NCBI GenBank assembly: GCA_914767715.1
Contig: OU612074.1
Span: forward strand, 6,833,501-6,897,500
Source of the DNA: Membranipora membranacea
Lineage: Eukaryota; Bryozoa; Gymnolaemata; Cheilostomatida; Membraniporidae
Direction of reading: 5' to 3'
DNA: 64,000 nt
The position numbers and the translations under genes were made by a program. Under the pieces are notes generated by a model that ran no database searches, had not been told where the DNA came from, and saw only the letters and a list, made by a program, of their open reading frames with translations. Shown here piece by piece: positions 5,461 through 63,778 of this stretch. Numbering within the stretch: position 1 is the stretch's first letter; each line of letters opens with the position of its first letter.

Positions 5461-5527
5461 TATAAAAAGCTGGGGGGATCTGGAGAAGGCACACATCTCT
5501 CTGTAGACAGTCAGCAACGGAGATCAA
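5461..5527 (+). promoter_or_regulatory. TATA box and non-coding exon 1 of repeat-peptide gene 1
   Basis: TATAAAAAG at 5461-5469 is followed by a stretch almost identical in all four paralogues (CTGGAGAAGGCACACATCTC), ending in ATCAA before a GTAAGT donor at 5528. Transcription probably starts about 25-30 bp after the TATA box, giving a short 5' UTR exon. An intron then runs to the ATG exon at 5751. Confidence 0.75.
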
Positions 5528-5751
5528 GTAAGTTTTCTGGCCCCATATATATATATATATTACGATTTTAACCAATCTTTACATTTGTATACTTAGTGAA
5601 GTATCAAGTTTTATTGTCTCCTGATAATTCATGAATGCGCCTATCAGATCAAAGCCTACACATAGCCTATCAAGATCTTGAGAATCTTTTCATGCAACAA
5701 TCTGTTATCTCTGATTCTTAGGTTCCTAACTCATGTTAATCTCTTTGTAGA

Positions 5752-8700
5752 ATGAACAAGTTGATTCTCATCACCCTGGTTTTCACTATCCTTGGTGCAA
5801 GTGAGTAATAAAAGAGCTTATAATGGTCAGCTACAGTTGACTTTTTCTCGAAGTATTCTCTATTAACTCAGAGCTGTGCTTGATGACTATTCATGTTAAT
5901 CAGTATAGCGCGGTAGACTTAATACCTTCAACCAAGATAAAAGTTTAGTTTAGCAAGTCACGCTAAATAAAGTTTTAAACATATCCTAAAAGCCTGGTAG
6001 TTTTTGAGTTCGAAGTTCTATGTTTCAGGCTCCGTACTTGGTGGTAGGAAGCAAACAGGAAACCATGTAGCAAGAGAAAATGGTATTGAGAGGACAGGAG
6101 GACTAGGACCAGCACCCAAACAAGATAGATCACCAGCTCACAGAAACAAGAGAAGCGCAAGAGGAACAAGACCAGCACCCAAGCAAGATAGATCACCAAC
6201 TCACAGAAACAAAAGAAGCGCATCAGGACACAGACAGGCACCCAAGCAAGATAGATCACCAGCTCACAGAAACAAGAGAAGAACAAAAGGAATAATACCA
6301 GGACACAGAATATACAAGAGAAGTGCATCAGGACCAAGACCAGCACCCAAGAAAGATAGATCACCAGCTCACAGAAACAAGAGAAGCCCAAAAGGAATAA
6401 TACTAGGACACAGATACAAGAGAAGTGCATCGGCACCAAGACAGGCACCCAAGCAAGATAGATCACCAGGTCACAGAAACAAAAGAAGAACAAAAGGAAT
6501 AATACCAGGACACAGAATATACAAGAGAAGTGCATCAGGACCAAGACCAGCACCCAAGAAAGATAGATCACCAGCTCACAGAAACAAGAGAAGCCCAAAA
6601 GGAATAAGACCAGGACACAGATACAAGAGAAGTGCATCGGGACCAAGACCAGCACCCAAGAAAGATAGATCACCAGCTCACAGAAACAAAAGAAGCGCAT
6701 CAGGACCAAGACAGGCACCCAAGCAAGATAGATCACCAGCTCACAGAAACAAGAGAAGCCCAAAAGGAATAATACTAGGACACAGATACAAGAGAAGTGC
6801 ATCGGCACCAAGACCAGCACCCAAGAAAGTTAGATCACCAGCTCACAGAAACAAAAGAAGCGCATCAGGACCAAGACAGGCACCCAAGCAAGATAGATCA
6901 CCAGCTCACAGAAACAAGAGAAGAACAAAAGGAATAATACCAGGACACAGAATATACAAGAGAAGTGCATCAGGACCAAGACAAGCACCCAAGAAAGATA
7001 GATCACCAGCTCACAGAAACAAGAGAAGCCCAAAAGGAATAAGACCAGGACACAGATACAAGAGAAGTGCATCGGGACCAAGACCAGCACCCAAGAAAGA
7101 TAGATCACCAGCTCACAGAAACAAAAGAAGCGCATCAGGACCAAGACAGGCACCCAAGCAAGATAGATCACCAGCTCACAGAAACAAGAGAAGAACAAAA
7201 GGAATAATACCAGGACACAGAATATACAAGAGAAGTGCATCAGGACCAAGACCAGCACCCAAGAAAGATAGATCACCAGCACACAGAAACAAGAGAAGTG
7301 CATCAGGACCGAGACAGGCACCAAAGCGAGATAGATCACCAGCTCACAGAAACAAGAGAAGAACAAAAGGAATAATACCAGGACACAGAATATACAAGAG
7401 AAGTGCATCAGGACCAAGACAGGCACCCAAGCAAGATAGATCACCAGCTCACAGAAACAAGAGAAGAACAAAAGGAATAATACCAGGACACAGAATATAC
7501 AAGAGAAGTGCATCAGGACCAAGACCAGCACCCAAGAAAGATAGATCACCAGCACACAGAAACAAGAGAAGTGCATCAGGACCGAGACAGGCACCAAAGC
7601 AAGATAGATCACCAGCTCACAGAAACAAGAGAAGAACAAAAGGAATAATACCAGGACACAGAATATACAAGAGAAGTGCATCAGGACCAAGACAAGCACC
7701 CAAGAAAGATAGATCACCAGCTCACAGAAACAAGAGAAGCCCAAAAGGAATAAGACCAGGACACAGATACAAGAGAAGTGCATCGGGACCAAGACCAGCA
7801 CCCAAGAAAGATAGATCACCAGCTCACAGAAACAAAAGAAGCGCATCAGGACCAAGACAGGCACCCAAGCAAGATAGATCACCAGCACACAGAAACAAGA
7901 GAAGTGCATCAGGACCGAGACAGGCACCAAAGCAAGATAGATCACCAGCTCACAGAAACAAGAGAAGAACAAAAGGAATAATACCAGGACACAGAATATA
8001 CAAGAGAAGTGCATCAGGACCAAGACAAGCACCCAAGAAAGATAGATCACCAGCTCACAGAAACAAGAGAAGCCCAAAAGGAATAAGACCAGGACACAGA
8101 TACAAGAGAAGTGCATCGGGACCAAGACCAGCACCCAAGAAAGATAGATCACCAGCTCACAGAAACAAAAGAAGCGCATCAGGACCAAGACAGGCACCCA
8201 AGCAAGATAGATCACCAGCACACAGAAACAAGAGAAGTGCATCAGGACCGAGACAGGCACCAAAGCAAGATAGATCACCAGCTCACAGAAACAAGAGAAG
8301 AACAAAAGGAATAATACCAGGACACAGAATATACAAGAGAAGTGCATCAGGACCAAGACCAGCACCCAAGAAAGATAGATCACCAGCACACAGAAACAAG
8401 AGAAGTGCATCAGGACCGAGACAGGCACCAAAGCAAGATAGATCACCAGCTCACAGAAACAAGAGAAGAACAAAAGGAATAATACCAGGACACAGAATAT
8501 ACAAGAGAAGTGCATCAGGACCAAGACAAGCACCCAAGAAAGATAGATCACCAGCTCACAGAAACAAGAGAAGCCCAAAAGGAATAAGACCAGGACACAG
8601 ATACAAGAGAAGTGCATCGGGACCAAGACCAGCACCCAAGAAAGATAGATCACCAGCTCACAGAAACAAAAGAAGCGCATCAGGACCAAGACAGGCACCC

Positions 8701-9510
8701 AAGCAAGATAGATCACCAGCTCACAGAAACAAGAGAAGTGCATCAGGACCGAGACAGGCACCAAAGCAAGATAGATCACCAGCTCACAGAAACAAGAGAA
8801 GAACAAAAGGAATAATACCAGGACACAGAATATACAAGAGAAGTGCATCAGGACCAAGACCAGCACCCAAGAAAGATAGATCACCAGCACACAGAAACAA
8901 GAGAAGTGCATCAGGACCGAGACAGGCACCAAAGCAAGATAGATCACCAGCTCACAGAAACAAGAGAAGAACAAAAGGAATAATACCAGGACACAGAATA
9001 TACAAGAGAAGTGCATCAGGACCAAGACAAGCACCCAAGAAAGATAGATCACCAGCTCACAGAAACAAGAGAAGCCCAAAAGGAATAAGACCAGGACACA
9101 GATACAAGAGAAGTGCATCGGGACCAAGACCAGCACCCAAGAAAGATAGATCACCAGCTCACAGAAACAAAAGAAGCGCATCAGGACCAAGACAGGCACC
9201 CAAGCAAGATAGATCACCAGCTCACAGAAACAAGAGAAGAACAAAAGGAATAATACCAGGACACAGAATATACAAGAGAAGTGCATCAGGACCAAGACCA
9301 GCACCCAAGAAAGATAGATCACCAGCACACAGAAACAAGAGAAGTGCATCAGGACCGAGACAGGCACCAAAGCAAGATAGATCACCAGCTCACAGAAACA
9401 AGAGAAGCGCCTCAGGAACAAGACCAGCACCCAAGCAATATAGATCACCAGCTCACAGAAACAAGAGAAGCGCAACAGGATTAAAAATTAAGCCGATATA
9501 CTTTTTTTAG
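5752..9510 (+). CDS. Multicopy secreted cationic-peptide precursor, gene 1 (three peptide classes)
   Basis: Join 5752-5800 and 6029-9510; the intron has GTGAGT and TTTCAG ends, phase 1, and 3,531 nt encode 1,176 aa. Exon 2 gives a signal peptide (MNKLILITLVFTILGA); exon 3 starts SVLGGRKQTG. After a 41-residue leader come 60 units, each ending in Lys-Arg: 39 long units such as SASGPRPAPKKDRSPAHRN, 13 of RTKGIIPGHRIY, and 8 of SPKGIRPGHRY or SPKGIILGHRY. Long units end R-N-K-R and SPKG units R-Y-K-R, both furin-type sites; the RTKG units end in a plain Lys-Arg. No unit has Gly before Lys-Arg, so C-terminal amidation is not expected. The tail is SATGLKIKPIYFF. Expected fate: secretion and cleavage to about 60 small basic peptides. 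The family is unrecognised. Multicopy Pro/Arg-rich antimicrobial precursors (apidaecin-like layout), neuropeptide precursors or a structural secretion are the alternatives. Confidence 0.9.
6029..9480 (+). repeat. Coding minisatellite with 63-, 42- and 39-bp units and 333-bp higher-order repeat
   Basis: Units of 63 bp (long peptide), 42 bp (RTKG class) and 39 bp (SPKG class) are all multiples of three. A six-unit cycle of 333 bp (63+39+63+63+63+42) recurs, and a 501-bp variant equals 333 plus 63+63+42. Synonymous markers (GCTCAC versus GCACAC; AACAAA versus AACAAG) travel with the unit type, showing recent amplification of whole cycles, best seen in 7.6-9.3 kb. Confidence 0.9.
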
Positions 9511-9880
9511 AGACAAACATCTATTACATTATCACAGCGATCAATTAAGACAAAAAATCACTACAACTTTTAACTCCTTACCAATTCAGATGCGCTAAGA
9601 AACCAAACTTACTCATTTTAAACAACAATTATCAAAACACTTTAAACCTATTAATTTTTATTACTTGTGTATTTTTCTTTTTCTCTCCGCTTAAGTTTTT
9701 TTTGTTTTGTTCTGTCACTGCATGAAAAACATTCCTAAAGATGATTGTAGATTGACAATAAAAGTATATATTTAAGACCAGCACCCAAGCAAGATAGATC
9801 ACCAGCAAACAGAAACAAGAGAAGCTCAACAGGATCAACACAGGCACTCAAGCAAGATAGATCACCAGCTTTCAGAAACA
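9483..9880 (+). pseudogene. Insertion that ends gene 1's array, plus stranded repeat relics
   Basis: At 9,482 the repeat reading breaks into unrelated AT-rich sequence that supplies the stop codon. At about 9,773 repeat sequence resumes (GACCAGCACCCAAGCAAGAT) for roughly two decayed units to 9,880, outside the reading frame now used. The simplest reading is an insertion of about 290 bp into a longer ancestral array. The insert holds an AATAAA at 9757-9762, so it could supply a poly(A) signal. No inverted repeats or clear target duplication were seen. Confidence 0.65.
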
Positions 9881-10990
9881 AAATTTAAATATTCAGCAAT
9901 AGTCAGTGACCAGCATATATGACCACTTTCGTGTTTTGACATTTTTCTCAGCAGTCTAGAAAACTCTGACAAAATATAAACTTGAGAGTCCATGTTATCT
10001 ACCTAATTTAATTTAAATTATTATTAACCAATAAACCTCACAGCAAACAAAAGAAAGCAGTCTGTGATTCCACTCACCCACTCATCGTTACAGGATGTGG
10101 GCAGTTGTTTGGGATGCTGGACTGTTTATAGCAAAACTCCAGACCGGTAGAAGCAAGAGGATGTACATGATCTATACGATCTTTATTTAGCTTATCCTTG
10201 GAACTTCCATGTACAGCTTAGCAGGTTCTGTCTTTGCACAGTTGGACACAGTCAATATTTTCTGATGGATCGAGAAAAAATGTCAGTAATGTGCCTAAGA
10301 CAATGTACAACGTGATGAAATCAGGGAGGGTGAAATGTATCACCCTCCCTGATGAAATATATATTCTATATAACTATCAAACAGGAGTTGTGTCCACTAT
10401 AGGTAAGAAAGAGCAATTCCTACCAGATATATGTTCGTTTTCTTAAATTGTTTAATAACACAATGTTTCAATGAAATTCTGCCCGCATGTAGGCAGAATC
10501 TCGGCTTGCTAACTTTTGGAGTTGCCCTTTCCTATCGTAAATGTTACCCAGTTCAGTTGTCAACCCGAAGATAATAACTATTTGGTATGGCTAATATATC
10601 CATGGTTTGACCTTCATTAAAATACTGATATACATGAACGATGTAATAGTGGATGGTTCACAGTGTGAAAGAAAATTAAAACAAATAATTGTATTATGGA
10701 ATAAGCATGAAATGATACAGTATAAAAGTGCTATAGATTGAAGAGAGCTGACATGAATATATCTATGGTGTAAAAATCAACCACTTACAAAATTAGGATG
10801 CAAAAATATTGCAGTAAGTCATATTAATTAGCGATTACATATTCAGAAACACATGACGCATGGACTGATATTAGCAGTCAGGGAGCACAAGGCTGTGGTT
10901 TTTTCAGCTTTGCTGGGAGAGGCCTTGAGGTATAGGATCCTTCTGTCTAAACTACTCGTTTACCTCTTGGAGGAGTATAACTGTCAGCCT
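9881..10990. other. 3' flank of gene 1
   Basis: About 9,905-10,080 aligns with the flanks after genes 2 and 4 (20,805 and 41,810 onward) and contains AATAAA at 10030-10035, a likely poly(A) signal for transcripts reading past 9,762. About 10,084-10,340 is absent from the flanks of genes 2 and 4 but resembles 14,876-15,060. A hairpin lies near 10,325-10,357 (CAGGGAGGGTG ... CACCCTCCCTG). No gene was recognised. Confidence 0.6.
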
Positions 10991-11417
10991 ACAGAAACAT
11001 GAGAAACCAATATTGGATTTTATAATTGTTTACGATTCCAAGTTTATGATCGGGTTGATGGCGGTGGATCAAAGCTGCTGTTTCTTTATACAGCAATCTA
11101 TGAAGTCCCAACAAGAAGCTCTCTGGACAATATACAATGAATTTGATATACATATATATCCAGGGTCTGTTGTGATTGACATTAGCATTGTTGAAGACTG
11201 CTGTCTTATATCTTGTTTTTACCTGTTTAAAGAGCTGTGTGGCAGTCGGTGATCTCCATAATGGTGGATAGCTAACACCAGCTTCATCATCGCTGCTCAT
11301 CAGGGCAGAATCGAGGTGCAGCTCCATAACTGCCTTCACTCCAATTATTTTCATAAGCCTAGTCTTTCTGCGCTTGAGCTGTGAAGGCTCAATCTGATCA
11401 GTTTTGACTAAATTCAT
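10989..11417 (-). pseudogene. Fragment of a transposon-type uncharacterised protein
   Basis: A 142-aa open frame with a basic stretch (LKRRKTRLMKI, about residues 14-24), an acidic SSDDEAG around 41-47, then PPLWRSPTATQLFKQV at about 51-66. The order SSDDE-rich, then PLxWRSxxxxxLF, resembles a motif in mobile-element-associated proteins of invertebrates, as far as I can recall. After residue ~75 the sequence no longer looks coherent. It occurs only in this block. It is likely a decayed insertion; homology is not verified. Confidence 0.35.
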
Positions 11418-12095
11418 TGATTAATCTTTTTGTAAATGAACTTATATACTGCCATGCATTTTTTGTACTGTAAGTTTAGTAAAAAACTTTTTGTATATTT
11501 AATATCATTTTCATAAATGGCATCAGCTTGTGCTACTATATTCATTAAACACATTAAAACATACAGTATGTGAGTACTTCTACCTACCCGGTTCTAAGCA
11601 ATGTTCACATTTCTTCTTTCGACCATAGCAAGAAAGTGAACAAAAAACGGCATTCAGATATTTGTAGCTTCTACTGTTGAATAACAATTGCATGTATTTG
11701 TATGAGATCATGAGTAAACCAGTGACTTCCCACATACTGCATCATCTGTAGCATGATAATGTGCCCTACAGTCCAATAGCGGAAGGGCAACTCCAAAATC
11801 CAGCAAGCGCGGGCAGAATGTCGTTGTAACACTGTGTAATTCAATATAATTTGCAGATCTTGAGTAAAATTGTCCCAGATTCAAAGTAAACTTAGCTAAT
11901 GTGTATGAATTTGTTTTGGAAAGTGCCGAGTTAACATTTAGAATGTCATTGTCAACGGTCAAACTCAGGAGACTGTCACTGATTTAAAATTTCTAGCTGA
12001 GGTACAATATCATATTAATCAACGCAAGTTAACATTTGTCTAGATGCAGCTCAGTTACATTCCTGTCACATTAAAACTGACTTTAGTTATTAAGT
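11418..12095. other. Non-coding flank in block 1
   Basis: No gene was seen. The part from about 11,935 (GAATGTCATTGTCAACGGTC) is repeated at 22,490 and 43,243, where it leads into the same hAT-like MITE. Confidence 0.6.
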
Positions 12096-14165: not shown

Positions 14166-16112
14166 CGAGTTTCAACATAATCAGTATCAGTATCAATTTA
14201 TTCCTAAGGCAATCATTTAAAAATTGTCCCAAATATGACCAAGAAAGCCCAGAAATGCCTCACAAAAGGCCTATAACTAGCCGTTTTCTGGGTGTTCCTT
14301 GGCATCAAATTTGGGAAAATTGGATATATAATGCAGAATTCTGCTGGCTTTTCCTGCGTTCAGCATGGATCATAAAAGCGGCTCTGCATGTGAAATCTTG
14401 GTCGGGTGGGATTGTTTTGTTGGGATTACAAACATAAAGAATTGCTTTGAAATTTGTTTTGAATTGTGGAGGTAGGCACAGATTAGTGTAGTAATAAGGA
14501 ATACAGTCTGCATTGTTTTCCTATCCAAATATCAAAATTAAAAACGTTATAACTTAGCAGTAGTGATTTAGTCCGAGGGCAATACTTTGAAAACTTTCCT
14601 AAATCTAACAGTATGAGGTATAATTTTTGGGCAAATATCCCATATCCTCATCCTCCCTTCCTCCCCTCCATGAGGGACATTTATCAGGGTGTACCTCACA
14701 CAATTATCCACACAGTTTTGATGTTGATGGTAAGTAGCTGGTAGCTTAGTTTTACCACCTATCACCTGCCAGGTATACAGGGGATGTCAATGATGTCAGA
14801 GGCTTCGGTTAACTTGAGATAACAATTTTTTACATACTTTATTAAGCTGCATAGTCCAACTGGTTCTAATGACATATCCTTACAGGATGTGGGGAGTTGT
14901 CATGGATGCTGGACTGTTTATTGTAAAACACTAGACCAGTGAAGACAACATGATGTCCGTTATCTCTTTGACCTATATTCAGCTTATCCTTAAAATTGCT
15001 ATGTCAATCCTTGCCAGGTTCTGTATTTGCACAGTGGACATAGTCAGTAATTAGTTACTGATGAATTGAGAAAAAAATATAATAAATAATAATGATTTTT
15101 TTCAAAATTACTAGAAATAACCTCAAAAATTTTAATTTTGCATTTTAAAGCAGTAACAGTATCATATCTTAGGTATGTTTCAAGTCCGTATCTATCTTAT
15201 GGTGAACAAATTTGATACCAGAAAGATTACACATTGTTTTTTTTTAATTTTTTCCAAGGTCTTTGATACAATTTATCACGATATTTTGATCAAAAAGTTA
15301 TTAATTATTAAAAATAAGGATGCGATTTCTGACATTAGATGGAAATAAGATTCAATCTTAAGATGATACAAAATAATCTTTGTACAGATAACCAGCTGAT
15401 AGCATCTCATCAAATTCAATCAGTGAACCAAAGTCATGCATCTCAAATACGCTCATTTTATATTATTAGAAGACCCATCAAGCTTTATTCAAAGCCCCCA
15501 AAATGCAGCATGAAAGCCAGAACTAAAATCCATGATGGGTTCTTGATTTTCCATATAAATAGAGAGAGATGTAGATTGTGGCTGAAATAAAGTATTTTTA
15601 GATATACAAGGCACTCATTTTTATGTTTCATTCATTAGCAAATCCAATAAAAATTAATGTTAAACACTACAGTGTCAACCTGTATATAATGATTATTATA
15701 GAGCAATTTTATGCTCAAATATTTATAAGCCTACCGCTGATCACAAGTGTTCTGGTATTTTTTAGGTTTGTTTTCCCCATTCTTGGCAACACTTTTAATT
15801 GCATCCTACATCATACATTGCATCTCCTATCACAACAATGATCTGTGGTATCCAGCCGCAGTCAATGTGCAGTGCAATGTAGTTTCCCTAAGTTAGCTGA
15901 ATTTTTAAAACCTGGACGATTTTAACCAGTGCGGCACAATTTGAATATCCAGCATTTATCCTGACTTGAGCTTACAAATGGTATGAAAAAAAATTTAGCA
16001 CAAAAGTAAAATGTGGTTCTTGAAGATCGTGTTCTCTATGTCTGGATAGACACAACTCATCACGTTCTGCCCACAGAAGATGCAAAGATTCTGCTGGATT
16101 TTTTTGTATTTT
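14166..16112. repeat. Block spacer, copy 1
   Basis: No gene was recognised. The same order of sequence recurs at 24,960-26,885 and 34,740-36,667, including AAGGCCTATAACTAGCCGTT, a segment starting CTTACAGGATGTGG, and the final 480 bp ending GATTCTGCTGGATT (also present inverted at 713-1195). Short frames here are not conserved as proteins. Confidence 0.7.
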
Positions 16113-16262
16113 GTATTTGTATTTGTATTTGTATTTGTATTTGTATTTGTATTTGTATTTGTATTTGTATTTGTATTTGTATTTGTATTTGTATTTGTAT
16201 TTGTATTTGTATTTGTATTTGAATTTGTATTTGTATTTGTATTTGTATTTGTATTTTGTATT
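16113..16262. repeat. (TTTGTA)n hexamer microsatellite, copy 1
   Basis: About 25 nearly perfect hexamers with one T-to-A change near 16,220. It joins the end of the spacer element to the middle of the TTAA MITE. All six frames are open and give low-complexity shadows. Confidence 0.95.
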
Positions 16263-16461
16263 TGGGATCATCTGGGTTGATCTGGGTCGGTCTGGGACGA
16301 TCCTAAACAATGTGAACATCATCCCAGCACTATCCCAGACAAAAAGCTAATTGCTCATCTGGGATGAATTTTGCAATGTGAACGTACGACTGGGACAATC
16401 TGGGATAGGCATCTGGGATGGCATCCCAGTGTCATCTGGGACAATGTGAACCAGCCATTAA
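16263..16461. mobile_element. Right half of the TTAA MITE, block 2 upstream
   Basis: Matches 2,466-2,664 of the full copy, ending CCAGCCATTAA. The left half is missing and replaced by the hexamer array. Confidence 0.75.
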
Positions 16462-19468: not shown

Positions 19469-19536
19469 TATAAAAGGCTGGGGGAGATCTGGAGAAGGCA
19501 CACATCTCTCTGTAGACAGACAGCAACAGAGATCAA
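19469..19536 (+). promoter_or_regulatory. TATA box and non-coding exon 1 of gene 2
   Basis: TATAAAAG at 19469-19476, then GCTGGGGGAGATCTGGAGAA and an exon ending ATCAA before GTAAGT at 19537. The sequence is nearly identical to genes 3 and 4. Confidence 0.75.
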
Positions 19537-19747
19537 GTAAGTTTTTTGATCCTATGTACAATTTGAACCAATCATTAAATTTGTACGCATAGTGAAGTAT
19601 CAAGTTTTATTGACTCCTTATGATACCATGAATGAGCGGATCAGATCAAAGCCTACACATAGCTCATCAAGATCTTGAGAATCTTTTCATGAACAATCTG
19701 GTATCTCTGATTCTTCTGTTCCTTACTCATGTTGTTATTTTTGTAGA

Positions 19748-20739
19748 ATGAATAAGTTGACTCTCATCGCCCTGGTTTTCACTATCCTTGGTGCCAGTGA
19801 GTAATAAAATATCTTATAATGGTCAGCTAAATGTGGCTTTTTCTCAAAGTATTCTCTACTAACTGTGAGCCGTGCCTGATGACTATTCATGTCGAACAGG
19901 ATAGCGATACAGACTGAATAGCTTCAAACGAGGAATTTTTTTCCATTAGCGAGCAACTCTCACTAAAATTCATACAAATTTTTTTATAAGCCTTGCAGTT
20001 TATAACTTAGCTGTTATATGTTCCAGGTGCTGTACATGGTGGTAGAAAGCAAACAGGAAACCATGTAGCAACACAAAATGGTAGTGAGAGGACAGGAGGA
20101 CAAGGATTAGCACCCAAGCAAGATAGAACACCAGCTCACAGAAACAAGAGAAGCGCAGCAGGACCAAGAAAGGCACCCAAGCAAGATAGATCACCAGCTC
20201 ACAGAAACAAGAGAAGCGCAGCAGGACCAAGACAGGCACCCAAGCAAGACAGATCACCAGCTCACAGAAACAAGAGAAGCGCATCAGGACCAAGACCAGT
20301 ACCCAAGCAAGATAGATTTCCAGCTCACAGAAACAAGAGAAGCGCATCAGGACCAAGACAGGCACCCAAGCAAGATAGATCACCAGCTCACAGAAACAAG
20401 AGAAACGCAGCAGGACCAAGACCAGCACCCAAGCAAGATAGATCACCAGCTCACAGAAACAAGAGAAACGCAGCAGGACCAAGACCAGCACCCAAGCAAG
20501 ATAGATCACCAGCTCACAGAAACAAGAGAAGCGCAGCAGGACCAAGACAGGCACCCAAGCAAGATAGATCACCAGCTCACAGAAACAAGAGAAACGCAGC
20601 AGGACCAAGACCAGCACCCAAGCAAGATAGATCACCAGCTCAAAGAAACAAGAGAAGCGCAACAGGACCACTACTTACTTGGAACAATCCGATACAATTT
20701 GGCACTCGAGTTTCTCTTGGTAGGATTCATTCAAGCTAG
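19748..20739 (+). CDS. Multicopy secreted cationic-peptide precursor, gene 2
   Basis: Join 19748-19796 and 20027-20739 (GTGAGT donor, TTCCAG acceptor, phase 1; 762 nt, 253 aa). The signal peptide MNKLTLIALVFTILGA is followed by a leader SAVHGGRKQTGNHVATQNGS and nine Lys-Arg-ended units of the long class only, such as NAAGPRPAPKQDRSPAHRN and SAAGPRQAPKQDRSPAHRN. One unit has RFPAHR and the last has PAQR. The array then changes to a unique tail, SATGPLLTWNNPIQFGTR, up to the stop. There are no RTKG or SPKG peptides, unlike gene 1. The R-N-K-R junctions fit furin-type cleavage. Exon 3 has no ATG of its own in frame, so the gene is only visible through the spliced model. Confidence 0.88.
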
Positions 20740-22643
20740 CTCTAAAACCGAAAAAAGAGAAGCTCAACAGGACCAAGACAGGCACTCAGGCAAGATATAT
20801 CAGTGACCAGCATTTATGACCACTTTCGTGTTTTGTCATTTTTCTCAGCAGTCTAGAAGACTCTGTTAAAATATAAACATGAGAGTCCATGTTATCTACC
20901 AAATTTAATTAAAATCATTATTAACCAATAAACCTCGCAACAAACAAAACAACGCAGTCTGTGATTCCACTCACCCACCCACTGGATATACCACCCTCCC
21001 TAATGAAATATATTTCTATCATTGGAAACAGGAGTTGTGTCCACTATAGGTAAGAAAGGGCAATTTCTACCAGATTTATGTTCGTTTTTTTTAAATTGTT
21101 TAATAATTCAATATAATTTGCAGCTCTTGAGTAATATTGTCCCATATTCAAAGTATACACAGCTAATGTGTATGAATTTGTTTTGGAAATTGCTGAGTTT
21201 TGCTGTCAAAAGATCATCATGATAATAATTAGACATCCACTGGGTTTCTTATAGCCCCTTTTGCAGTCATCCCCTTTTGACAATCAGTACTTTAAATGTT
21301 ACAACAACCAGCAGGTTCCAAATGGGCCATCTTTCTCCTTACTCACTGATATTATTGTGGAGAAAGAATCTCTTCCTAATTCATAAGATCAACGGGATAA
21401 TTCAATGATTATCAATACTGTTCAATTCATCTTCAGGGGAATGTTGCATGCTCGGACAGGGCAAATATTGTGTAAAACTTTACTATCCACAATATTGTTG
21501 AACTATTACATCAAGTTAGATTCAAGTCTTCTGGCATTCGGAGATGCTACTCTCTAGAGAAGAGTGTGGAGAAATTCAGGCGCGCTGACCGATCGCCCCA
21601 TCTCACCATCCCCACAAAACGAATGAGTATATGGTGCTAATTGGCATGGACCCTATTCACTACTCAGAGTTGTGTTCTCTCGCAATAACCAGGGATATTA
21701 CGACGCTTTTATGTGTCTCTCTATCTTGAAATCTCTGATGATTTCTTTTGCATATCGGGACAGAGATCGTATACGACAAAACTCCGCACTTATACAGACC
21801 TTTCTGTGCTAATCTCTTAACCAGGAAGTCTGATAAACCAGACCAAACTGCTGCTGGGCAAACCAGCTACAAAACATGAAGCAAGTCTCACTGTAGTTGT
21901 GTTATTAGGGTTTTATATTTTATTTTTGATATCACTTCATGATATATACAGGATGTCAACAATACATAAAATCTAGATCCATATGTAGTGCAGTGGCAGC
22001 CACCCTCCCAACCTAAAATAAACATCCGTGTGGTCTGTTGATTTTGCTCTAAGCTGCTAAGTTTCAATCGACATGTTTTCAGTCCGTTGGGTTATAATTT
22101 ACAATATACTCATATGAGTTTCTTCCTAGCCTGGGATTCATACCTAGGTTCGAAGTGTACAGACAAGACCCCTATGTTTGGTCTTAATCCCGGCAAGTTT
22201 CCACCCTATTGAGAAGTTTATTGTGTTTTTTTCACAGTCGCTTAAGGCTACGTAATTAAACCTAACCTTGTCCCCCGGCCACTTATTGACAAGGATAAAA
22301 ATTCACTGATAAAATTTGAGCTATTATCTATATAAATTCATATATTTCAATATCAATGCATTGTTTTCAATATTGTTTTTTTAAATAGTAATGAGCGTCT
22401 TATTTCATCCACAATTTTAATATCTATCTATGAATTGTTTATTGAACGTTTCAAGTTGAATGACTGCTTCCAACCAGGTTAAAATTTAGAATGTCATTGT
22501 CAACGGTCAAACTCAGGAGACTGTCACTGATTTAAAATTTCTAGCTGAGGTACAATATCATATTAATCAACGCAAGTTAACTTTTGTCTAGATGCAGCTC
22601 AGTTACATTCCTGTCACATGAAAACTGACTTTAGTTATTAAGT
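20740..22643. repeat. 3' flank of gene 2
   Basis: Begins with a decayed repeat relic (GAGAAGCTCAACAGGACCAA near 20,757), then a likely poly(A) signal at 20,927. It is collinear with 41,746-43,397 except for about 255 bp (21,655-21,908) missing there. No gene was recognised. Confidence 0.65.
20927..20932 (+). terminator. Candidate poly(A) signal for gene 2
   Basis: AATAAA about 190 bp after the stop, at the same relative place as 41,933 for gene 4 and 10,030 in the flank of gene 1. Confidence 0.5.
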
Positions 22644-24800: not shown

Positions 24801-26885
24801 TCCTATATGGGATTGTTTTATTGGGATTACGAACAGAAAAAAATGCTTCGAAATTTGTTGTGAATTATGAAAGTAGGCACAGATTAGTGTAGTAGTAAGG
24901 ACTACAGCCTGAATTCTTTTCCTATCCAAATATCAAAAGTAACAACGTTATAACTTCTAGCAGTATCAATTTATTCCTAAGGCAATAATTAAAAGACTGT
25001 CCCAAATTTGCCTAAGAAAGCCCAGAAATGCCTCACAAAAGGCCTATAACTAGCCGTTTTCTGGATGTTCCTTGGCATCAAATTTGGGTAAGTTGGATAT
25101 ATAATACAATATTCTGCTGGCTTTTCCTGCGTTCACCATGGATCATAAAAGCGGCTCTGTATGTGAAATCTTGGTCGGTGGGATTGTTTTATTGGGATTA
25201 CAAACATAAAGAAACGCTTTGAAATTTGTTTTGAATTGTGGAGGTAGGCACAGATTAGTGTAGTAATAAGGAATAAAGTCTTCATTGTTTTCCTATCCAA
25301 ATATCAAAAATAAAAACGTTATAACTTAGCAGTAATGATTTAGTCCAAGGGCAATACTTTGAAAATTGTCCTAAATCTAACAGTATGAGGTATAATTTTT
25401 GGGCAAATACCCCATATCCTCATCCTCCCTTCCTCCCCTCCATCAGGGACATTTATCAGGGTGTACCTCACATAATTATCCTTACAGTTTTGATGTTGAT
25501 GGTAAAGTAGCTGGTAGCTTAGTTTTACCGCCGATCACCTGCCACATATACAGTGGATGTCAATGATGTCAGAGGCTTCTGTTAACTTGAGATAACAATT
25601 TTTGACAAACTTTATTAAGCTGCATGGTCCAACTGGTTCTAACGACATATCCTTACAGGATGTGGGGAGTTGTCATGGATGCTAGACTGTTTATTGTAAA
25701 AAGCTAGACCAGTGAAGACAACACAATGTGCGTCATCTCTTTGACCTATATTCAGCTTATCCTTAAAATTGTTATGTCAATCCTTGCCAGGTTCTGTATT
25801 TGCACAGTGGACATAGTCAGTAATTAATTAATGATGAATTGAGAAAAGAATGTAATAAATAATTATTATTTTTTTCAAAATGACTAGAAATAACCTCAAC
25901 AATTTTAATTTTGTATTTTAAAGCAGTAACAGTATCATATCTTAGGTATGTTTCGAGTCCGTAGCTGTCTTATGGTGAACAAATTGGATACCAGAAAGAT
26001 TACACAATGTTTATTTTGTTTTTTTCCAAGGCCTTGGATACAATTTAGCACGATATTTTGATCGAAAAGTTATTAATTATTAAAAATAAGGATGCGATTT
26101 CTGACCATAGACTGAAATAAGTTTCAATCTTAAGATGATACAAAATAATCTTTGTACAGATAACCAGCTGATAGCATCTCATCAAATTCAATCAGTGAAC
26201 CAAAATCATGCATCTCAAATACGCTCATTTTAAATTATTAGAAGACCCATCGAGCTTTATCCAAAGCCCCTTAAATGCAGCATGAAAGCCAAAACTAAAA
26301 TCCATGATGGGTTCTTGATTTTCCAAATAAATAGAGAGAGATGTCGATTGTGGCTGAAGTAAAGTATTTTAAGATATACAAGTCACTCATTTTTTATGTT
26401 TCATTCATTAGCAAATCCAATTAAAATTGATGTTAAAGCACTACAGTGTCAACCTGTATATAATGATTATTATAGAGCAATTTTATGCTCAAATATTTAT
26501 AAGCCAACTGCTGATCACAAGTGTTCTGGGATTTTTTAGGTTTGTTTTCCCCATTCTTGGCAACACTTTTAATTGCATCCTACATCGTACATTGCATCTC
26601 CTATCACAACAATGATTTGTGGTATCAAGCCGCAGTCAATGTGCAATGCAATGTAGTTGCCCTAAGTTAGCTGAATTTTTAAAACCTGGACGATTTTAAC
26701 CAGTGCGGCACAATTTGAATATCCAGCATTTATCCTGACTTGAGCTTACAAATGGTATGAACAAAAATTTAGCACAAAATTAAAATGTGGTTCTTGCAGA
26801 TCATGTTCTCTATGTCCGGAGAGACACAACTCATCATGTTCTGCCCACAGAAGATGCAAAGATTCTGCTGGATTTTTTTGTATTT
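24801..26885. repeat. Block spacer, copy 2
   Basis: Counterpart of 14,166-16,112, with an extra partial copy of the AAATATCAAAA-type stretch near 24,830-24,960. No gene was recognised. Confidence 0.65.
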
Positions 26886-27006
26886 TGTATTTGTAATTGT
26901 ATTTGTATTTGTATTTGTATTTGTATTTGTATTTGTATTTGTATTTGTATTTGTATTTGTATTTGTATTTGTATTTGTATTTGTATTTGTATTTGTATTT
27001 TGTATT
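26886..27006. repeat. (TTTGTA)n hexamer microsatellite, copy 2
   Basis: About 20 hexamers with one interruption (TTTGTAATTG) near the left end. Same junction position as the arrays at 16,113 and 36,668. Confidence 0.95.
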
Positions 27007-27215
27007 TGGGATCATCTGGGTTGATCTGGGTCGGTCTGGGTCGGTCTGGGACGATCCTAAACAATGTGAACATCATCCCAGCACTATCCCAGACAAAAAG
27101 CTAATTGCTCATCTGGGATGAATTTTGCAATGTGAACGTACGTCTGGGACAATCTGGGATAGGCATCTGGGATGGCATCCCAGTGTCATCTGGGACAATG
27201 TGAATCAGCCATTAA
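27007..27215. mobile_element. Right half of the TTAA MITE, block 3 upstream
   Basis: As at 16,263-16,461, with one extra GGTCGGTCTGG repeat near its left end. Confidence 0.75.
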
Positions 27216-30687: not shown

Positions 30688-30755
30688 TATAAAAGGCTGG
30701 GGGAGATCTGGAGAAGGCACACATCTTTCTGTAGACAGATAGCAACGGCGATCAA
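30688..30755 (+). promoter_or_regulatory. TATA box and non-coding exon 1 of gene 3
   Basis: TATAAAAG at 30688-30695, then the conserved leader and an exon ending ATCAA before GTAAGT at 30,756. Confidence 0.75.
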
Positions 30756-30967
30756 GTAAGTTTTTTGATCCTATGTACAATTTGAACCAATCTTTAAATG
30801 TGTACGCATAGTGAAGCATCCAGTTTTATTGTCTCCTTATGATACCATGAAAGAGCGGATCAGATCAAAGCCTACACATAGCTTATCAAGATCTTTAGAA
30901 ATTTTTCATGCAATAATCTTGTCTCTCTGATACTTCTGTTCTCTTCTCATGTTGTTATTTTTGTAGA

Positions 30968-31905
30968 ATGAATAAGTTGATTCTCATCGCCCTGGTTTTC
31001 ACTATCCTTGGTGCCAGTGAGTAATTAAAGTTAGTAAACTTATAATGGCCAGCTAAATGTGGCTTTTTCTCGAAGTATTCTCTACTACCTCAGAGCCGTG
31101 CCTGATGACTATTCATGTTGAAAAGGATAGAGCTACAAACTGATTGGCTTCAAACCAGGAATGTTTTTCCATAAGCGAGCCACTCTCAATAAAATTTAAA
31201 CAAATTATCTTATAAGCCTTGCAGTTTATGAGTTAGCTGTTCTATGTTCCAGGTGCTGTACTTGGTGGTAGAAAGCAAACAGGAAACCATGTAGCAACAC
31301 AAAATGGTAGTGAGAGGACAGGAGGACTAGGACCAGCACCCAAGCAAGATAGATCACCAGCTCACAGAAACAAGAGAAGCGCAGCAGGACCAAGACAGGC
31401 ACCCAAGCAAGATAGATCACCAGCTCACAGAAACAAGAGAAGCGCGGCAGGACCAAGACAGGCACCCAAGCAAGATAGACCACCAGCTCACAGAAACAAG
31501 AGAAGCGCAGCAGGACCAAGACCAGCACCCAAGCAAGATAGATCACCAGCTCACAGAAACAAGAGAAGCCCAGCAGGACCAAGACCAGCACCCAAGCAAG
31601 ATAGATCACCAGCTCACAGAAACAAGAGAAGCGCAGCAGGACCAAGACCAGCACCCAAGCAAGATAGATCACCAGCTCACAGAAACAAGAGAAGCCCAGC
31701 AGGACCAAGACCAGCACCCAAGCAAGATAGATCCCCAGATCACAGGAACAAGAGAAGCACAGCAGGACCAAGACAGGCACCCAAGCAAGATAGATCACCA
31801 GCTCACAGAAACAAGAGAAGCGCAGCAGGACCACTCAATGACTTATACTTTCCTTCCCTTTACTCCCCCACTTTCCCTGTTATTTCCCCCTCACCTCAAA
31901 TTTAA
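30968..31905 (+). CDS. Multicopy secreted cationic-peptide precursor, gene 3
   Basis: Join 30968-31016 and 31253-31905 (phase-1 intron; 702 nt, 233 aa). The signal peptide MNKLILIALVFTILGA is followed by leader SAVLGGRKQTGNHVATQNGS, then eight Lys-Arg-ended long-class units, including SAAGPRQAPKQDRSPAHRN and SPAGPRPAPKQDRSPAHRN. One unit has RPPAHR and one has RSPDHR. After the last Lys-Arg the frame runs SAAGPLNDLYFPSLYSPTFP and ends PSPQI, a tail unrelated to those of genes 1, 2 and 4. Like gene 2, it is only visible with the spliced signal-peptide exon. Confidence 0.88.
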
Positions 31906-34710: not shown

Positions 34711-36667
34711 GGGTGGTTGATTACACGAGTTTCAACATAATCAGTATCAGTATCAATTTATTCATAAGGCAATAATTTAAAGATTGTCCCAAATTTGCCT
34801 AAGAAAGCCCAGAAATGCCTCACAAAAGGCCTATAACTAGCCGTTTTCTGGGTGTTCTTTGGCATCAAATTTGGGAAAATTGGATATATAATGCAGAATT
34901 CTGCTGGCTTCTCCTGCGTTCAGCATGGATCATAAAAGCGGCTCTGCATGTGAAATCTTGGTCCGGTGGGATTGTTTTGTTGGGATTACAAACATAAAGA
35001 AATGCTTTGAAATTTGTTTTGAATTGTGGAGGTAGGCACAGATTAGTGTAGTGATAAAGAATACACTCTGCATTGTTTTCCTATCTAAATATCAAAAGTA
35101 ACAACGTTATAACTTGCAGCAGTAGTGATTTAGTCGAAGGGCAATACTTTGAAAACTGTCCTAAATCTAACAGTATGAGGTATAGTTTTTGGGCAAATAT
35201 CCCATATCCTCATCCCCCCTTCATCCCTTCCATCAGGGACATTTATCAGGGTGTACCTCACAGAATTATCCATACAGTTTTGATGTTCATGGTAGGTAGC
35301 TGGTAGCTTAGTTTTACCACCTATCACCTGCCAGGTATACAGGGGATGTCAATGATGTCAGAGGCTTCGGTTAACTTGAGATCACAGTTTTTTACAAACT
35401 TTATTATGCTGCATAGTCCAACTTGTTCTAATGACATATCCTTACAGGATGTGGGGAGTTGTCATGGATGCTGGACTGTTTATTGTAAAACACTAGACCA
35501 GTGAAGACAACACAATGTGCGTTATCTCTTTGACCTATATTCAGCTTATCCTTGAAATTGTTATGTCAATCCTTGCCAGGTTCTGTATTTGCACAGTGGA
35601 CATAGTCAGGAATTAATTACTGATGAATTGAGAAAAGAATGTAATAAATAATCATCATTTTTTTCAAAATGACTAGAAATAACCTCAACAATTTTAATTT
35701 TATATTTTAAAGCAGTAACAGTATCATATCTTAGGTATGTTTCAAGTCCGTAGCTGTCTTATGGTGAACAAATTGGATACCAGAAAGATTACACAATGTT
35801 TATCTTGTTTTTTTCCAAGGCCTTTGATACAATTTAGCACGATATTTTGATCGAAAAGTTATTAATTATTAAAAATAAGGATGCGATTTCTGACCATTGA
35901 TGGAAATATGTTTCAATCTTAAGATGATACAAAATAATCTTTGTACAGATAACCAGCTGATAGCATCTCATCAAATTCAATCAGTGAACCAAAATCATGC
36001 ATCTCAAATACGCTCATTTTAAATTATTAGAAGACCCATTGAGCTTTATTCAGAGCCTCTAAAATTCAGCATGAAAGCCAAATCTAAAATCCATGATGGG
36101 TTCTTGATTTTCCAAATAAATAGAGAGAGATGTCGATTGTGGCTGAAATAAAGTATTTTTAGATATACAAGTCACTCATTTTTTTGGTTTCATTCATTAG
36201 AAAATCCAATAAAAATTAGTGTTAAAGCACTACAGTGTCAACCTGTATATAATGATTATTATAGAGCAATTTTATGCTCAAATATTTATAAGCCTACCGC
36301 TGATCACAAGTGTTCTGGTATTTTTTAGGTTTGTTTTCCCCTTTCTTGGCAACACTTTTAATTGCATCCTACATCGTACATTGCATCTCCTATCACAACA
36401 ATGATTTGTGGTATCCAGCCGCAGTCAATGTGCAGTGCAATGTAGTTGCCCTAAGTTAGCTGAATTTTTAAAACCTGGACGATTTTAACCAGTGCGGCAC
36501 AATTTGAATATCCATCATTTATCCTGACTTGAGCTTACAAATGGTATGAACAACAATTCAGCACAAAATTAAAATGTGGCTCTTGAAGATCGTGTTCTCA
36601 ATGTCAAGATAGACACAACTCATCATGTTCTGCCCACAGAAGATGCAAAGATTCTGCTGGATTTTTT
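34711..36667. repeat. Block spacer, copy 3
   Basis: Collinear with 14,166-16,112 and the second copy. No gene was recognised. Confidence 0.7.
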
Positions 36668-36911
36668 TGTATTTTGTATTTGTATTTGTAATTGTATTTG
36701 TATTTGTATTTGTATTTGTATTTGTATTTGTATTTGTATTTGTAGTTGTATTTGTAGCTGTATTTGTATTTGTATTTGTATTTGTATTTGTATTTGTATT
36801 TGTATTTGTATTTGTATTTGTATTTGTATTTGTATTTGTATTTGTATTTGTATTTGTATTTGTATTTGTATTTGTATTTGTATTTGTATTTGTATTTTGT
36901 ATTTTGTATTT
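36668..36911. repeat. (TTTGTA)n hexamer microsatellite, copy 3
   Basis: The longest of the three arrays, about 40 hexamers, with a few variant units (TTTGTAATTG, TTTGTAGTTG, TTTGTAGCTG) in its left third. Confidence 0.95.
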
Positions 36912-37109
36912 GGGATCATCTGGGTTGATCTGGGTCGGTCTGGGACGATCCTAAACAATGTGAACATCATCCCAGCACTATCCCAGACAAAAAGCTAATT
37001 GCTCATCTGGGATGAATTTTGCAATGTGAACGTACGACTGGGCCAATCTGGGATAGGCATCTGGGATGGCATCCCAGTGTCATCTTGGACAATGTGAACC
37101 AGCCATTAA
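36912..37109. mobile_element. Right half of the TTAA MITE, block 4 upstream
   Basis: As at 16,263-16,461, ending CCAGCCATTAA. Confidence 0.75.
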
Positions 37110-40100
37110 GAAAAAGGCATGATAAGGTTACGGGGCGTCGATACTTACTATTGGTTGCTAAGACTTGTTATGACTGTCGCTATGAGCTTGAGCTTTTTTT
37201 ACTTGTGATTATTGGTATAATCATTATCTTCTTATATACTTGTTGTGACTGGCTGGAAGTTTGTCAGTTCAAATAATTACGCTGAAGAATATAACAAATA
37301 ATTGCTTATGAATTATGAACTGAAATTATTTCCTGTTCCTTCTTATACACATGTTATGTTATTGCAAGTAGAATTCATCATCAAACAATGGGCGACTTAA
37401 AGTAACATTAAATTAATCAATAGTGGTGACACATCATTATAAGATTTTTTCACGATCATAGATCAGCCTTTTTATTAATTTGAAGATATCCTAATCATTT
37501 CCACAATAGTGCAATGATTCTTGTCTCAAATAATATATAATTAATAAGCATACTTCCTCTTTCATGACATTTGTATCCTGCTAACTAATATAACTATTTC
37601 CTCCTGTTACTCATGAAACTATGTCGTCAGAGAATACCTGCATTGTAAATATAATTCAAACCAAACAGCAAAGTTCTTTAGGTCAGATTCTTTTTGTTTT
37701 TATTCCATATCTACATGCGCTCAGACTTGGCGCAAGAAAATGCATCACATTCTTTTTTTACATCCATTAGAATGAATTTGACTTTCAGGACTCTACATGA
37801 AAATGTATGGTTTTTTTCCGCCCTATTTAATCGGCCCGGTTTAGTGCTGCTGGTATGTGTGGGAAAGATACCTTAAACCCTTATACCTCTGTTGCCGGCT
37901 AGTCTTTTATTCAAAGGCGCAGAGGGAGATATTCATACTGTCTACAACCCCCTGTATTTTTGGTCCTGATCCGAACAGACCTGGCTAGGATGAGTGACTT
38001 GCCAATACCAAATCAGAAATGACATACAGTGCCAGGGAATTGAATTTGGATCATAAGATCACAAGTCCTTACCGTCAATCCACTCCTGACTCCTTGATAT
38101 TAACACAATATGAAAGAGTGCTAAGATATACTGAGGAATACTGAGTTGGTCTTCAGTTGAAATGAAGTGTGAAAAGGTGCGCTGCAGGGTGTGCAACAGT
38201 AAGCCAAATATTATTGCCCTGCTAGTAGCCTGCTGTGAGGGGATATACTAGGCGCCCTGGGAATTCCCATAATAGTTGTCTTGTTTCATGATTTCATAAT
38301 TTATTGAGGGAGAACCTTGAAAATATAACATAGGAAGTCACTGCATTGCTTTAATCTATATGATATTACAAGAAGTACAGAAGTTTTACTGTCTGTCAGA
38401 TTAGAATGTTGCACACCTGCCTCAGAATAAGAAACATCACAAAACATGCTGGCAGGATACAATCAGGACAGTCCTTGAATGTATTTTTCTCAATGCAAAA
38501 AATGCTATAAGAGGGAGTGTCTCCTGCAGATAAAGCTGAACATATATGAGAAGTCACATCAAGGTACAAGTTGGTTATTGAATAATTGTATTATGATTTA
38601 TGAAATTAAATCCTTGAAATTCATTTCAATAATGCATTATTTCTAGTTTCGACAAGTAAACCAACATCGATAGGCAAGACAAGCATAAAAAATAGCTTCT
38701 TATTTGGAAGAAAGGGAAGGTTGACAATTTATGTTGTTGTTTCCAATCAAAAGTATGGCTATATAATATATTCTTAGCATTGTGGAAATTGCACAAATGA
38801 CATCAAGTCTTGAATTCTTGGCCACACTGCAAAGAAGGATTTCCTAATCACTTCCATAAAATGTAATTACTGATGAGTGTGATGAAAAGAACACAGCTTA
38901 TAAATATTTTATAACAGTGATGATTCATGCTATTCATATCCTGCTAAACTTTCCTCGGATATTTGAAAATGACTTTCATATCTTCTACAATTTGATTTCA
39001 CCATTTCACTCCATGCAAGGAGTTAGAGACAACGCTAACTCCTTGCTCCATGTGACTAGAAACTGTCAATATTCAATGCGGGCTTTGTGTCCCGTTTGAT
39101 GCAATGGCACTGTGTCATACATTCATTGTATAGCTGCCGTTGTTTGAACTGAATGGTTGCATTTGCTAATTTCCTTTTGCACAAATAACATATTGCCCAG
39201 ATAAGAACAAATTATATTTAAAAATATGAAATCCAAAGGTGTTTAATTTCCTGATAAGAGAACCAGCTAAGGAGTCCTGGGATGGTATTCAGATTTCTCA
39301 ATCGAGAGTTTCAGGTTTAAATCCAAGTCACTACCCATGCTGCTAAAAGAGGACTCTCCATACATTACCCTAGCTTGCCAACCATTACCTTGTATAATAT
39401 ATGAATTGCACTGTATCTTATTTGACAATATTCTCATTGGCCAAAAAATGGGCACTGAATAATAATTAGCAAGTAGCCAGAAAAACCACAAAAGTTATAT
39501 TTTGATAATTGATGCGTAATGATGTACTCCCTCTAAATTTGCATGTAATAATATCAAAGTAGAAAATTTGGTTATTTGAATAGCAAACTCTCTATGAATA
39601 TATTATTCAAAGAAGTTAATGTGTGAAAGTATGGTTTCTAGAATAAAACAAGTTATATTTTGTTTGTTTTAATCATAATACATAAATAGTCATCTCAATT
39701 ACAAAATCATCTACAAAAAACAATGTTATGTTTTCAATATTAACAAATTTTCTATGAACGAAACATAGCTTCCCAACTTATTTCAGTTTATCGCATGATT
39801 ATAATCTAAGTTACTAATAGTTCTTCTTTGATGAAACAAATGGGTTCAGGTTCTTTGCTACTCTTGAGCTCTCTTTATTAGATGGACACTCGTCCTACGC
39901 TACGTTAAAAAGGCAGTACTGGTAGACAGAGTATGTGTCAGAGATATGAGTTGCCTCCTTTTTTCCGGATAATTCGCACACAAAAATATAATAAATGGCT
40001 GACTGAGAACAAACTGGACAATCCACAAACCCCAAATCTCAAACCCTTATTTAAATCCTTATTAACTAGGAAGATTTTATATGAATGGCTTTTTTTAGTC

Positions 40101-40686
40101 ATGTGAAAATGAACTTTTCATGAGAGTTGAGAAATGATCCTCTCTTCATGTTTCTGAGTTGCCAATTAGTGTACCAGATTTGATTTGGCGCCAACAGCTT
40201 CAACTGTAGACATGCCAGCAGGAGACTTATGCGAGAGAGCTCACATGATTGTCTATTAGAAGCTCAAGATAATTTATTCATCAAGCAGCGCTGGGCAGGA
40301 ATCAGGATGTCCATACATTAATTTTAACTAATTATATATATATATATATATATACTATTTTATTTGGCAGACAATAATCAGATAAGATGATGTCATTGTT
40401 CATAAAACTAAAAAGCATTAGGGTTAAGGATTTCCTATCTTTCAATAACCTAGCAAAACACGGCGTTTTAAATGATAGTTGGAAAAATAAAATTAGCTGG
40501 TCTCTGAAAATACTCATTATAGTCATTTCCAGTAAGCCTCCTTTCCCCTGATCATTTTCTAAATACCCTAATTACACAAATTAAACTGCCTAACCTTATG
40601 ATCAAAAAACGTATTATCCTGATGAGCATCATAATAATTTTTTAATAATATCATCACAAAGGATGTCCGGACAAGAATTGTAGGTG
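37110..40686. repeat. Upstream region of gene 4
   Basis: Collinear with the upstream regions of genes 2 and 3. Has the 607-bp presence/absence segment (37,937-38,543) like block 3. From about 39.7 kb to the TATA box it is nearly identical to block 2. An (AT)n run lies at 40,334-40,354. No gene was recognised. Confidence 0.7.
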
Positions 40687-40754
40687 TATAAAAGGCTGGG
40701 GGAGATCTGGAGAAGGCACACATCTCTCTGTAGACAGACAGCAACAGAGATCAA
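40687..40754 (+). promoter_or_regulatory. TATA box and non-coding exon 1 of gene 4
   Basis: TATAAAAG at 40687-40694 with the conserved leader and a GTAAGT donor at 40,755. By eye, identical to gene 2 over this stretch. Confidence 0.75.
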
Positions 40755-40942
40755 GTAAGTTTTTTGATCCTATGTACAATTTGAACCGATCATTAAATTT
40801 GTACGCATAGTGAAGTATCAAGTTTTATTGACTCCTTATGATACCATGAATGAGATCTAAAGGTGATCTTGAGAATCTTTTCATGCAACAATCTGGTATC
40901 TCTGATTCTTCTGTTCCTTACTCATGTTGTTATTTTTGTAGA

Positions 40943-41745
40943 ATGAATAAGTTGATTCTCATCGCCCTGGTTTTCACTATCCTTGGTGCCAGTGAGTAAT
41001 AAAATATCTTATAATGGTTAGCTGAATGTGGCTTTTTCTCAAAGTATTCTCTACTAACTGTGAGCCGTGCCTGATGACTATTCATGTCGAACAGGATAGC
41101 GCTACAGACTGAATAGCTTCAAACGAGGAATTTTTTTCCATTAGCGAGCAACTCTCACTAAAATTCATACAAATTTTTTTATAAGCCTTGCAGTTTATGA
41201 CCTAGCTGTTATATGTTCCAGGTGCTGTACTTGGTGGTAGAACGCAAACAGGAAACCATGTAGCAACACAAAATGGTAGTGAGAGGACAGGAGGACTAGG
41301 ATTAGCACCCAAGCAAGATAGAACACCAGCTCACAGAAACAAGAGAAGCGCAGCAGGACCAAGACAGGCACCCAAGCAAGATAGATCACCAGCTCACAGA
41401 AACAAGAGAAACGCAGCAGGACCAAGACCAGTACCCAAGCAAGATAGATCACCAGCTCACAGAAACAAGAGAAGCGCAGCAGGACCAAGACCAGTACCCA
41501 AGCAAGATAGATCACCAGCTCACAGAAACAAGAGAAACGCAGCAGGACCAAGACCAGTACCCAAGCAAAATAGATCCCCAGCTCACAGAAACAAGAGAAA
41601 CGCAGCAGGACCAAGACCAGTACCCAAGCAAAATAGATCACCAGCTCACAGAAACAAGAGAAGCGCAACAGGACCACTACTTACTTGGAACAATCCGATA
41701 CAATTTGGCACCCGAGTTCCTCTTGGTAGGATTCATTCCAGCTAG
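40943..41745 (+). CDS. Multicopy secreted cationic-peptide precursor, gene 4
   Basis: Join 40943-40991 and 41222-41745 (phase-1 intron; 573 nt, 190 aa). The signal peptide MNKLILIALVFTILGA is followed by leader SAVLGGRTQTGNHVATQNGS and six Lys-Arg-ended units, mostly the GPRPVPKQ variant such as NAAGPRPVPKQNRSPAHRN. Two units carry Asn in place of Asp (KQNRS). The tail SATGPLLTWNNPIQFGTR is the same as in gene 2, as is the 3' flank. It is the shortest array in the family. Long-class peptides only. Confidence 0.88.

Positions 41746-48314: not shown

Positions 48315-63778
<15,464 letters not shown>

Follow-up and report, generated by a model that had tools for sequence, protein, structure and literature searches.

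We found that a 64,000-nucleotide stretch of chromosome 10 of the cheilostome bryozoan Membranipora membranacea (C10:6833501-6897500, hereafter the window) carries four genes, g1 to g4, for multicopy peptide precursors, and that these genes belong to a larger family with two clusters on the same chromosome. Judged from its sequences, the family very probably consists of real precursors that are secreted and processed. An extracellular role of the peptides in host defence, suggested by their composition and evolution, has in our estimation an even chance of being correct. We place the full reading, namely secreted multicopy precursors that would be cut by furin-like convertases into short unamidated defence peptides, at the same level.

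The four genes were rebuilt by script, and the models confirmed the multicopy-precursor observation: each has a TATA box, a leader exon, a signal-peptide exon, a phase-1 intron and an open repeat exon. The leader exons end at a GTAAGT donor, exon 2 contains AATG and a hydrophobic signal peptide, and at intron 2 the donor reads GTGAGT and the exons join in phase 1 in 4/4 genes. An earlier interpretation of the window (the sequence-only reading) had claimed this common architecture and an in-frame closure with the same intron phase in all four genes, and the script models agree on both counts. The precursors comprise 1176 (g1), 253 (g2), 233 (g3) and 190 (g4) residues, and all their exons lie on the plus strand. 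In g1 the TATA box (5461-5467) is followed by an untranslated leader exon (5490-5527, donor GTAAGT, start inferred from the TATA box), by exon 2 with the signal peptide MNKLILITLVFTILGA (5751-5800, ATG at 5752) and by exon 3 (6029-9510), which encodes a leader and 62 segments ending in Lys-Arg (KR). The corresponding TATA box, end of the leader exon, signal-peptide exon 2 and exon 3 are found at 19469-19475, 19536, 19747-19796 and 20027-20739 in g2, at 30688-30694, 30755, 30967-31016 and 31253-31905 in g3, and at 40687-40693, 40754, 40942-40991 and 41222-41745 in g4. The putative signal peptide MNKLILIALVFTILGASA and variants of it, as judged by eye, stand at the N-terminus of models in both clusters.

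The repeat exons hold 62, 9, 8 and 6 KR-ended segments in g1 to g4, 85 in total, and R-x-[KR]-R is present in 48, 9, 8 and 6 of these (71/85). This bears out the earlier statement that KR marks the unit boundaries and that most of them read R-x-K-R; the remaining 14 segments are 13 B units with an I-Y-K-R end and a single one ending in A-P-K-R. In g1, units of three types, A (21 residues), B (14 residues) and C (13 residues), alternate in a higher-order pattern. A ends with RSPAHRN and C with PGHRY, and on reading the unit DNA, C reads like A minus eight codons. Peptides of 12 and 11 residues occur only in g1 among the four window genes. The predicted peptides carry net charges of +2.5 to +3.5 and are hydrophilic and partly proline-rich, with a Pro content of 16-21% in A, 8% in B and 18% in C. 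We propose that the precursor would enter the secretory route, that a furin- or proprotein convertase-type enzyme would cut after each KR and that a carboxypeptidase would trim the KR residues. This would release short peptides with a free C-terminus, among them SASGPRPAPKKDRSPAHRN, RTKGIIPGHRIY and SPKGIRPGHRY (from g1), whose calculated average masses are 2029.2, 1410.7 and 1267.4, and the peptide output would be raised via both unit number and gene number. Gly before KR was found in 0/232 KR-ended units of 13 models, leader segments excluded, so that an amidation signal is absent from the units.

The genome was searched as 339,339,785 bases in 18 contigs; the genome report prints the slightly larger size of 339,374,674 bases in 21 scaffolds and lists polyA RNA-seq data of this specimen as ERR6464929 (PMC10290214). 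The unit search yielded at least 133 matches, at least 125 of them at 6.742-6.875 Mb of C10. This first cluster comprises 13 arrays over 133 kb and has g1 to g4 at its end. Its left part consists of seven minus-strand arrays and its right part of six plus-strand arrays. Ten of the 13 arrays are uninterrupted and have an exon 2, and these genes hold 6 to 62 KR segments each. Three arrays are disrupted: in L012 exon 2 is present and a stop lies within the array, whereas L015 and the second L014 array contain stops and have no recognised exon 2. Decaying copies are part of the family. The sequence-only reading had described one locus with four genes; the observation holds, but the genes form part of the 13-array cluster within a larger two-cluster family. 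On another chromosome (L017 and L026, C7:11388500-11402000) we observed an array of A-like units that has a TATA-like leader but lacks exon 2 at its usual position; a sequence resembling exon 2, MNKLILIALLFTILGK, follows ∼3.5 kb past the L017 array, and no array was seen after this piece.

A second query revealed the second cluster 3 Mb from the first; it lies at 9.94-10.20 Mb of C10 and comprises 15 related places. In nine of them (L019, L034, L036, L037, L038, L039, L041, L044 and L047) exon 2 is joined via GT-AG sites to an exon 3 with an open frame, and seven of these nine models have, in addition, the TATA box and the leader string with its donor; TATAAAA was not found in L047, and neither TATA box nor leader string was found in L041. 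L028 (C10:9938000-9941300) retains exon 2 as well as TATA box and leader, but has GG in place of AG at the usual acceptor of intron 2, and five places are fragments or lack a recognised exon 2. The predicted peptides of this cluster are unlike those of the first cluster and unlike one another (for example AIKPLTLRLQPLGYRN, TLRFNPALSYRN and GTEGATLAYNQEQPHGHRN). Most are nonetheless flanked by R-N-K-R, and R-x-K-R is found at 6/6 boundaries in L034. Compared with its relatives, L047 has two additional whole 18-residue units, both bounded by R-x-K-R sites. In a tree of 13 genes, built from the TATA box to the leader, the two clusters separate and the first cluster holds three supported clades. 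The C-terminal predicted peptide of L034, L036, L037, L038 and L044 ends in EACKKSKFCAVL followed by S, F or Y and may form a small disulphide loop. Two fragments 11.6 kb apart, L031 (C10:10096417) and L032 (C10:10108030), contain an identical 101-residue open frame, which we take as a sign of recent segment duplication in the second cluster too.

Arrays of this kind could in principle be a non-coding minisatellite whose frames are open only because each unit spans a whole number of codons; indeed, the 63-base period leaves several frames open on both strands, including an antisense frame of 885 residues. The spacing itself does not decide the matter, since the disrupted arrays are also spaced in multiples of three. 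However, exons are better conserved than introns in 10/10 distinct gene pairs tested (sets of four and seven pairs with one pair in both; g2-g4 and g3-g4 were left out of the significance tests). Comparing g1 with g2, g3 and g4, we counted 19/216, 15/216 and 17/216 exon mismatches versus 88/437, 94/438 and 93/414 intron mismatches (P 2e-4, 1e-6 and 3e-6), and for g2-g3 10/216 versus 44/440 (P 0.02). P values in the seven-pair set range from 5.5e-4 to 1.5e-8. Exon and intron identities are 89.6 and 69.1% for g1-L013, 75.0 and 55.0% for g1-L019, and 70.3 and 50.9% for g3-L021. Furthermore, the nonsynonymous substitution rate (dN) of the leader is below the synonymous rate (dS) in every between-clade comparison run. 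The difference is mostly strong, with dN/dS of 0.047/0.219 for g1-L009 and 0.149/0.520 for g3-L019 (31 codons), and weak for g3-L009 (0.039/0.049). For g1-g3 the leader dN/dS is 0.039/0.156. The two clusters also agree in their splice sites, in the TATA box and in the leader exon. The candidate of a non-coding satellite was rejected on the exon-intron contrast, and we regard it as extremely improbable.

The putative cutting sites are retained as well, apparently under selection. KR is present in 196/202 A-type units of the ten genes that have exon 2 and whose array is uninterrupted (tiles matching at least 46 of 63 bases; L012 excluded; one tile is relic sequence beyond the g1 stop), and 5/6 losses fall on the final unit of an array. 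Changes in codon R18 are silent in 18 cases and not in two; those in codon K20 are silent in 17 and not in two. R18, N19 and K20 are changed in 2 of the 202 units each, as compared to 121, 57 and 31 units for positions 3, 7 and 11. In-frame stops occur in 3/13 units of L015, which lacks exon 2, versus 0/202 A units. Because a tandem repeat copies any residue, KR periodicity within one array is by itself weak evidence. KR is also kept in arrays that lack exon 2, so the comparison across clusters carries more weight. That comparison also bears on the idea that the genes encode a basic, secreted repeat protein for cuticle, adhesive or mineral matrix whose KR sites are uncut or only partly cut. 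The long arrays with their calculated net charge of up to +334 (g1) would fit such a protein, and so would the calcified walls of Membranipora membranacea and its life on kelp (PMC10290214). Nevertheless, R-x-K-R is mostly retained from one cluster to the other although the units have otherwise changed, and the two extra units of L047 are whole and delimited by such sites. We consider a matrix protein quite unlikely.

Several observations weigh against secreted, processed defence precursors. In the leader, dN exceeds dS in 3/3 pairs among g2 to g4 (0.027-0.043 versus 0-0.012, few sites), dN/dS is near 1 for g1-L016 (0.0232/0.0239), and the second-cluster mean is 0.58 (15 pairs, six models). 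Constraint is thus clear between old copies and loose between recent ones. Arrays without exon 2 also retain KR (11/13 units in L015, 8/9 in the second L014 array and 8/8 in L017), so that retention within arrays partly reflects recent copying. The frame test on A units gave a modest result (187 units, 83 variants, 26 synonymous versus 21.4 expected, P=0.067), and the arrays were taken from open frames, which in part accounts for their lack of stops. Boundaries are lost in several second-cluster copies: L036 and L037 keep four R-x-[KR]-R sites and read SNKG or RNKS elsewhere. In the window genes, Arg at P4 is missing from the B units (13/85 segments). As to composition, Pro does not exceed 21%, no known antimicrobial motif was matched, and some second-cluster peptides are neutral, for example GTEGPTPASKHDRPDGHRN with a net charge of about 0. 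Of the earlier description as multicopy cationic peptide precursors, independent comparisons that include the second cluster support the gene structure, the signal for secretion and the boundaries of convertase type, whereas the word cationic applies to the window genes but not to all second-cluster peptides.

We prefer host defence as the role of the peptides because they are cationic, hydrophilic and unamidated, because units and genes provide dosage, because copies turn over and because g1 encodes three peptide types. Precedents exist for tandem defence polypeptides that are cut by furin (PMC8423362, PMC11549390), and the systems nearest to this family, Baramicin and apidaecin, are polypeptides of that sort processed by furin-like or other proteases. 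The main rival is that the polyproteins yield secreted signalling peptides, i.e. neuropeptides, colony hormones or gamete or larval pheromones. We consider this rather unlikely, in spite of two points in its favour: signal peptide, dibasic sites and many copies are usual in neuropeptide and pheromone precursors (PMC4772807, PMC5850478), and the conserved C-terminal [HYN]-R-N as well as the final second-cluster peptide with two Cys, ASVVSSLEACKKSKFCAVLS, would suit receptor ligands. The absence of the amidation signal from all 232 units and the strong difference between the peptides of the two clusters argue against signalling. Large tandem clusters, decaying copies and a wide range of unit numbers are unusual for neuropeptides, whose multicopy precursors are usually encoded by single genes, and we counted this against signalling too. 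Echinoderm precursors of the thyrotropin-releasing hormone type resemble the family in their dibasic cuts and many copies of one peptide, but their peptides are amidated (PMC4772807), whereas here no Gly precedes KR. The yeast alpha-factor gene MFalpha1 likewise has a variable number of peptide repeats; its pheromone output is described as reaching a plateau near 6 repeats, as compared to 6 to 62 segments here (PMC5850478). No sequence likeness to MFalpha1 was seen.

Among known defence systems, the apidaecin polyproteins of bees and wasps (type II proline-rich antimicrobial peptides) are similar in that a leader is followed by repeated short Pro/Arg peptides with processing sites, sometimes from several genes per genome (PMC11549390). 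Penultimate Arg, a possible further point of likeness, is present in A and C units and most second-cluster peptides and absent from B units. Differences from the apidaecins are the missing PRPPHPRL C-terminus, the missing RREAEPEAEP-type spacer and the lower Pro content; moreover, apidaecin genes are insect genes that usually lie on different chromosomes, whereas the present ones are clustered and bryozoan (PMC11549390). Membership in the apidaecin family does not hold, since the C-terminal motif is lacking. We also considered an independent origin of apidaecin-like polyproteins in bryozoans, with dozens of peptides per precursor that would act inside bacteria on a target such as the terminating ribosome. 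Most peptides would combine penultimate Arg with a free carboxylate (-HRN, -HRY, -YRS, -NRN), and the second cluster would have swapped peptide bodies while keeping promoter, signal and cutting frame. Penultimate Arg, however, is also P4 of R-x-K-R, which offers another possible cause for its conservation, so the likeness proves nothing yet. We hold this reading to be very unlikely. A Pro content of at least about 25% is the rule for proline-rich antimicrobial peptides, and no unit type reaches it. Drosophila Baramicin A, a single precursor cut at furin sites into tandem related peptides, differs by its RXRR sites, its three IM10-like repeats (VXRPXRTV) and longer domains, and its IM10-like peptides are described as not overtly cationic (PMC8423362). 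The motif VXRPXRTV was not seen on reading the g1 units and the second-cluster peptides.

Database searches agree with the earlier remark that no named family is known for the unit. Pfam gave no match for g3 at E 1 and two matches for L019, both below cut-off. There were no matches at E 1 among PDB sequences (121 residues of g3) and no relatives among GTDB prokaryote genomes. Searching the open literature with peptide strings returned one match, an unrelated acronym. Neither this search nor those by topic had a comparable bryozoan peptide precursor among the matches listed, and Membranipora membranacea is named in none of the 15 papers listed of 1,662 in one topic search. Precursors of this kind are known; what appears to be new relative to Pfam, PDB, GTDB and the searched literature is this family, along with its phylum and its size. 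To our knowledge, little is known about bryozoan peptide biology. Modular polyproteins in two clusters, with up to 62 KR-ended segments, would supply candidate effectors or messengers for bryozoans. They would also offer a natural series for the growth of multicopy precursors by unit gain, gene duplication and decay, in which peptide bodies change and cutting sites stay.

We further aligned 15 promoters of the family, i.e. 13 with TATAAAA 200-400 bases before the ATG together with L015 and L017. TATA region and leader exon are similar throughout; L017 reads TTTAAAA. A block ∼170 bases upstream, AAGGATTTCCTATCTTTCA in g1 (5289-5307, plus strand), is recognisable in 14/15 promoters and deleted in L012. 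Across seven representatives, no other window outside the core is conserved as well (agreement 0.89, median 0.38). The block may be kB-like, but its own core is variable (GGATTTCC, GGGTTTCC, GGATATCC, GGATGTCC); we therefore name no factor for it.

The genes g2, g3 and g4 are borne by tandem segments of ∼10 kb (11930-44220, plus strand) with long aligned stretches that are 87-98% identical. TTTGTA hexamer arrays of unequal lengths occur in the three segments (16103-16264, 26877-27008 and 36666-36912). Decayed repeats on the plus strand trail three of the genes: A units past the g1 stop (9774-9881) and one unit each past g2 (20750-20802) and g4 (41756-41808).

Rfam and tRNA scans of the window were uninformative, and Pfam gave nothing above cut-off for ten open reading frames of the flanks. 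Another secreted-looking exon with a 30-base internal repeat and no Pfam match lies on the minus strand at 59029-59505. An intronless rhodopsin-type G-protein-coupled receptor gene is present at 55363-56343 on the plus strand (Pfam 7tm_1, E 3.5e-9); of the PDB sequences, that of melanin-concentrating hormone receptor 1 matches it best (E 7e-8). Finally, we found an exon of a malic enzyme gene at 53386-53739 (plus strand) and a broken retroelement reverse transcriptase, with RVT_1 in two frames, at 45517-46900 (minus strand).

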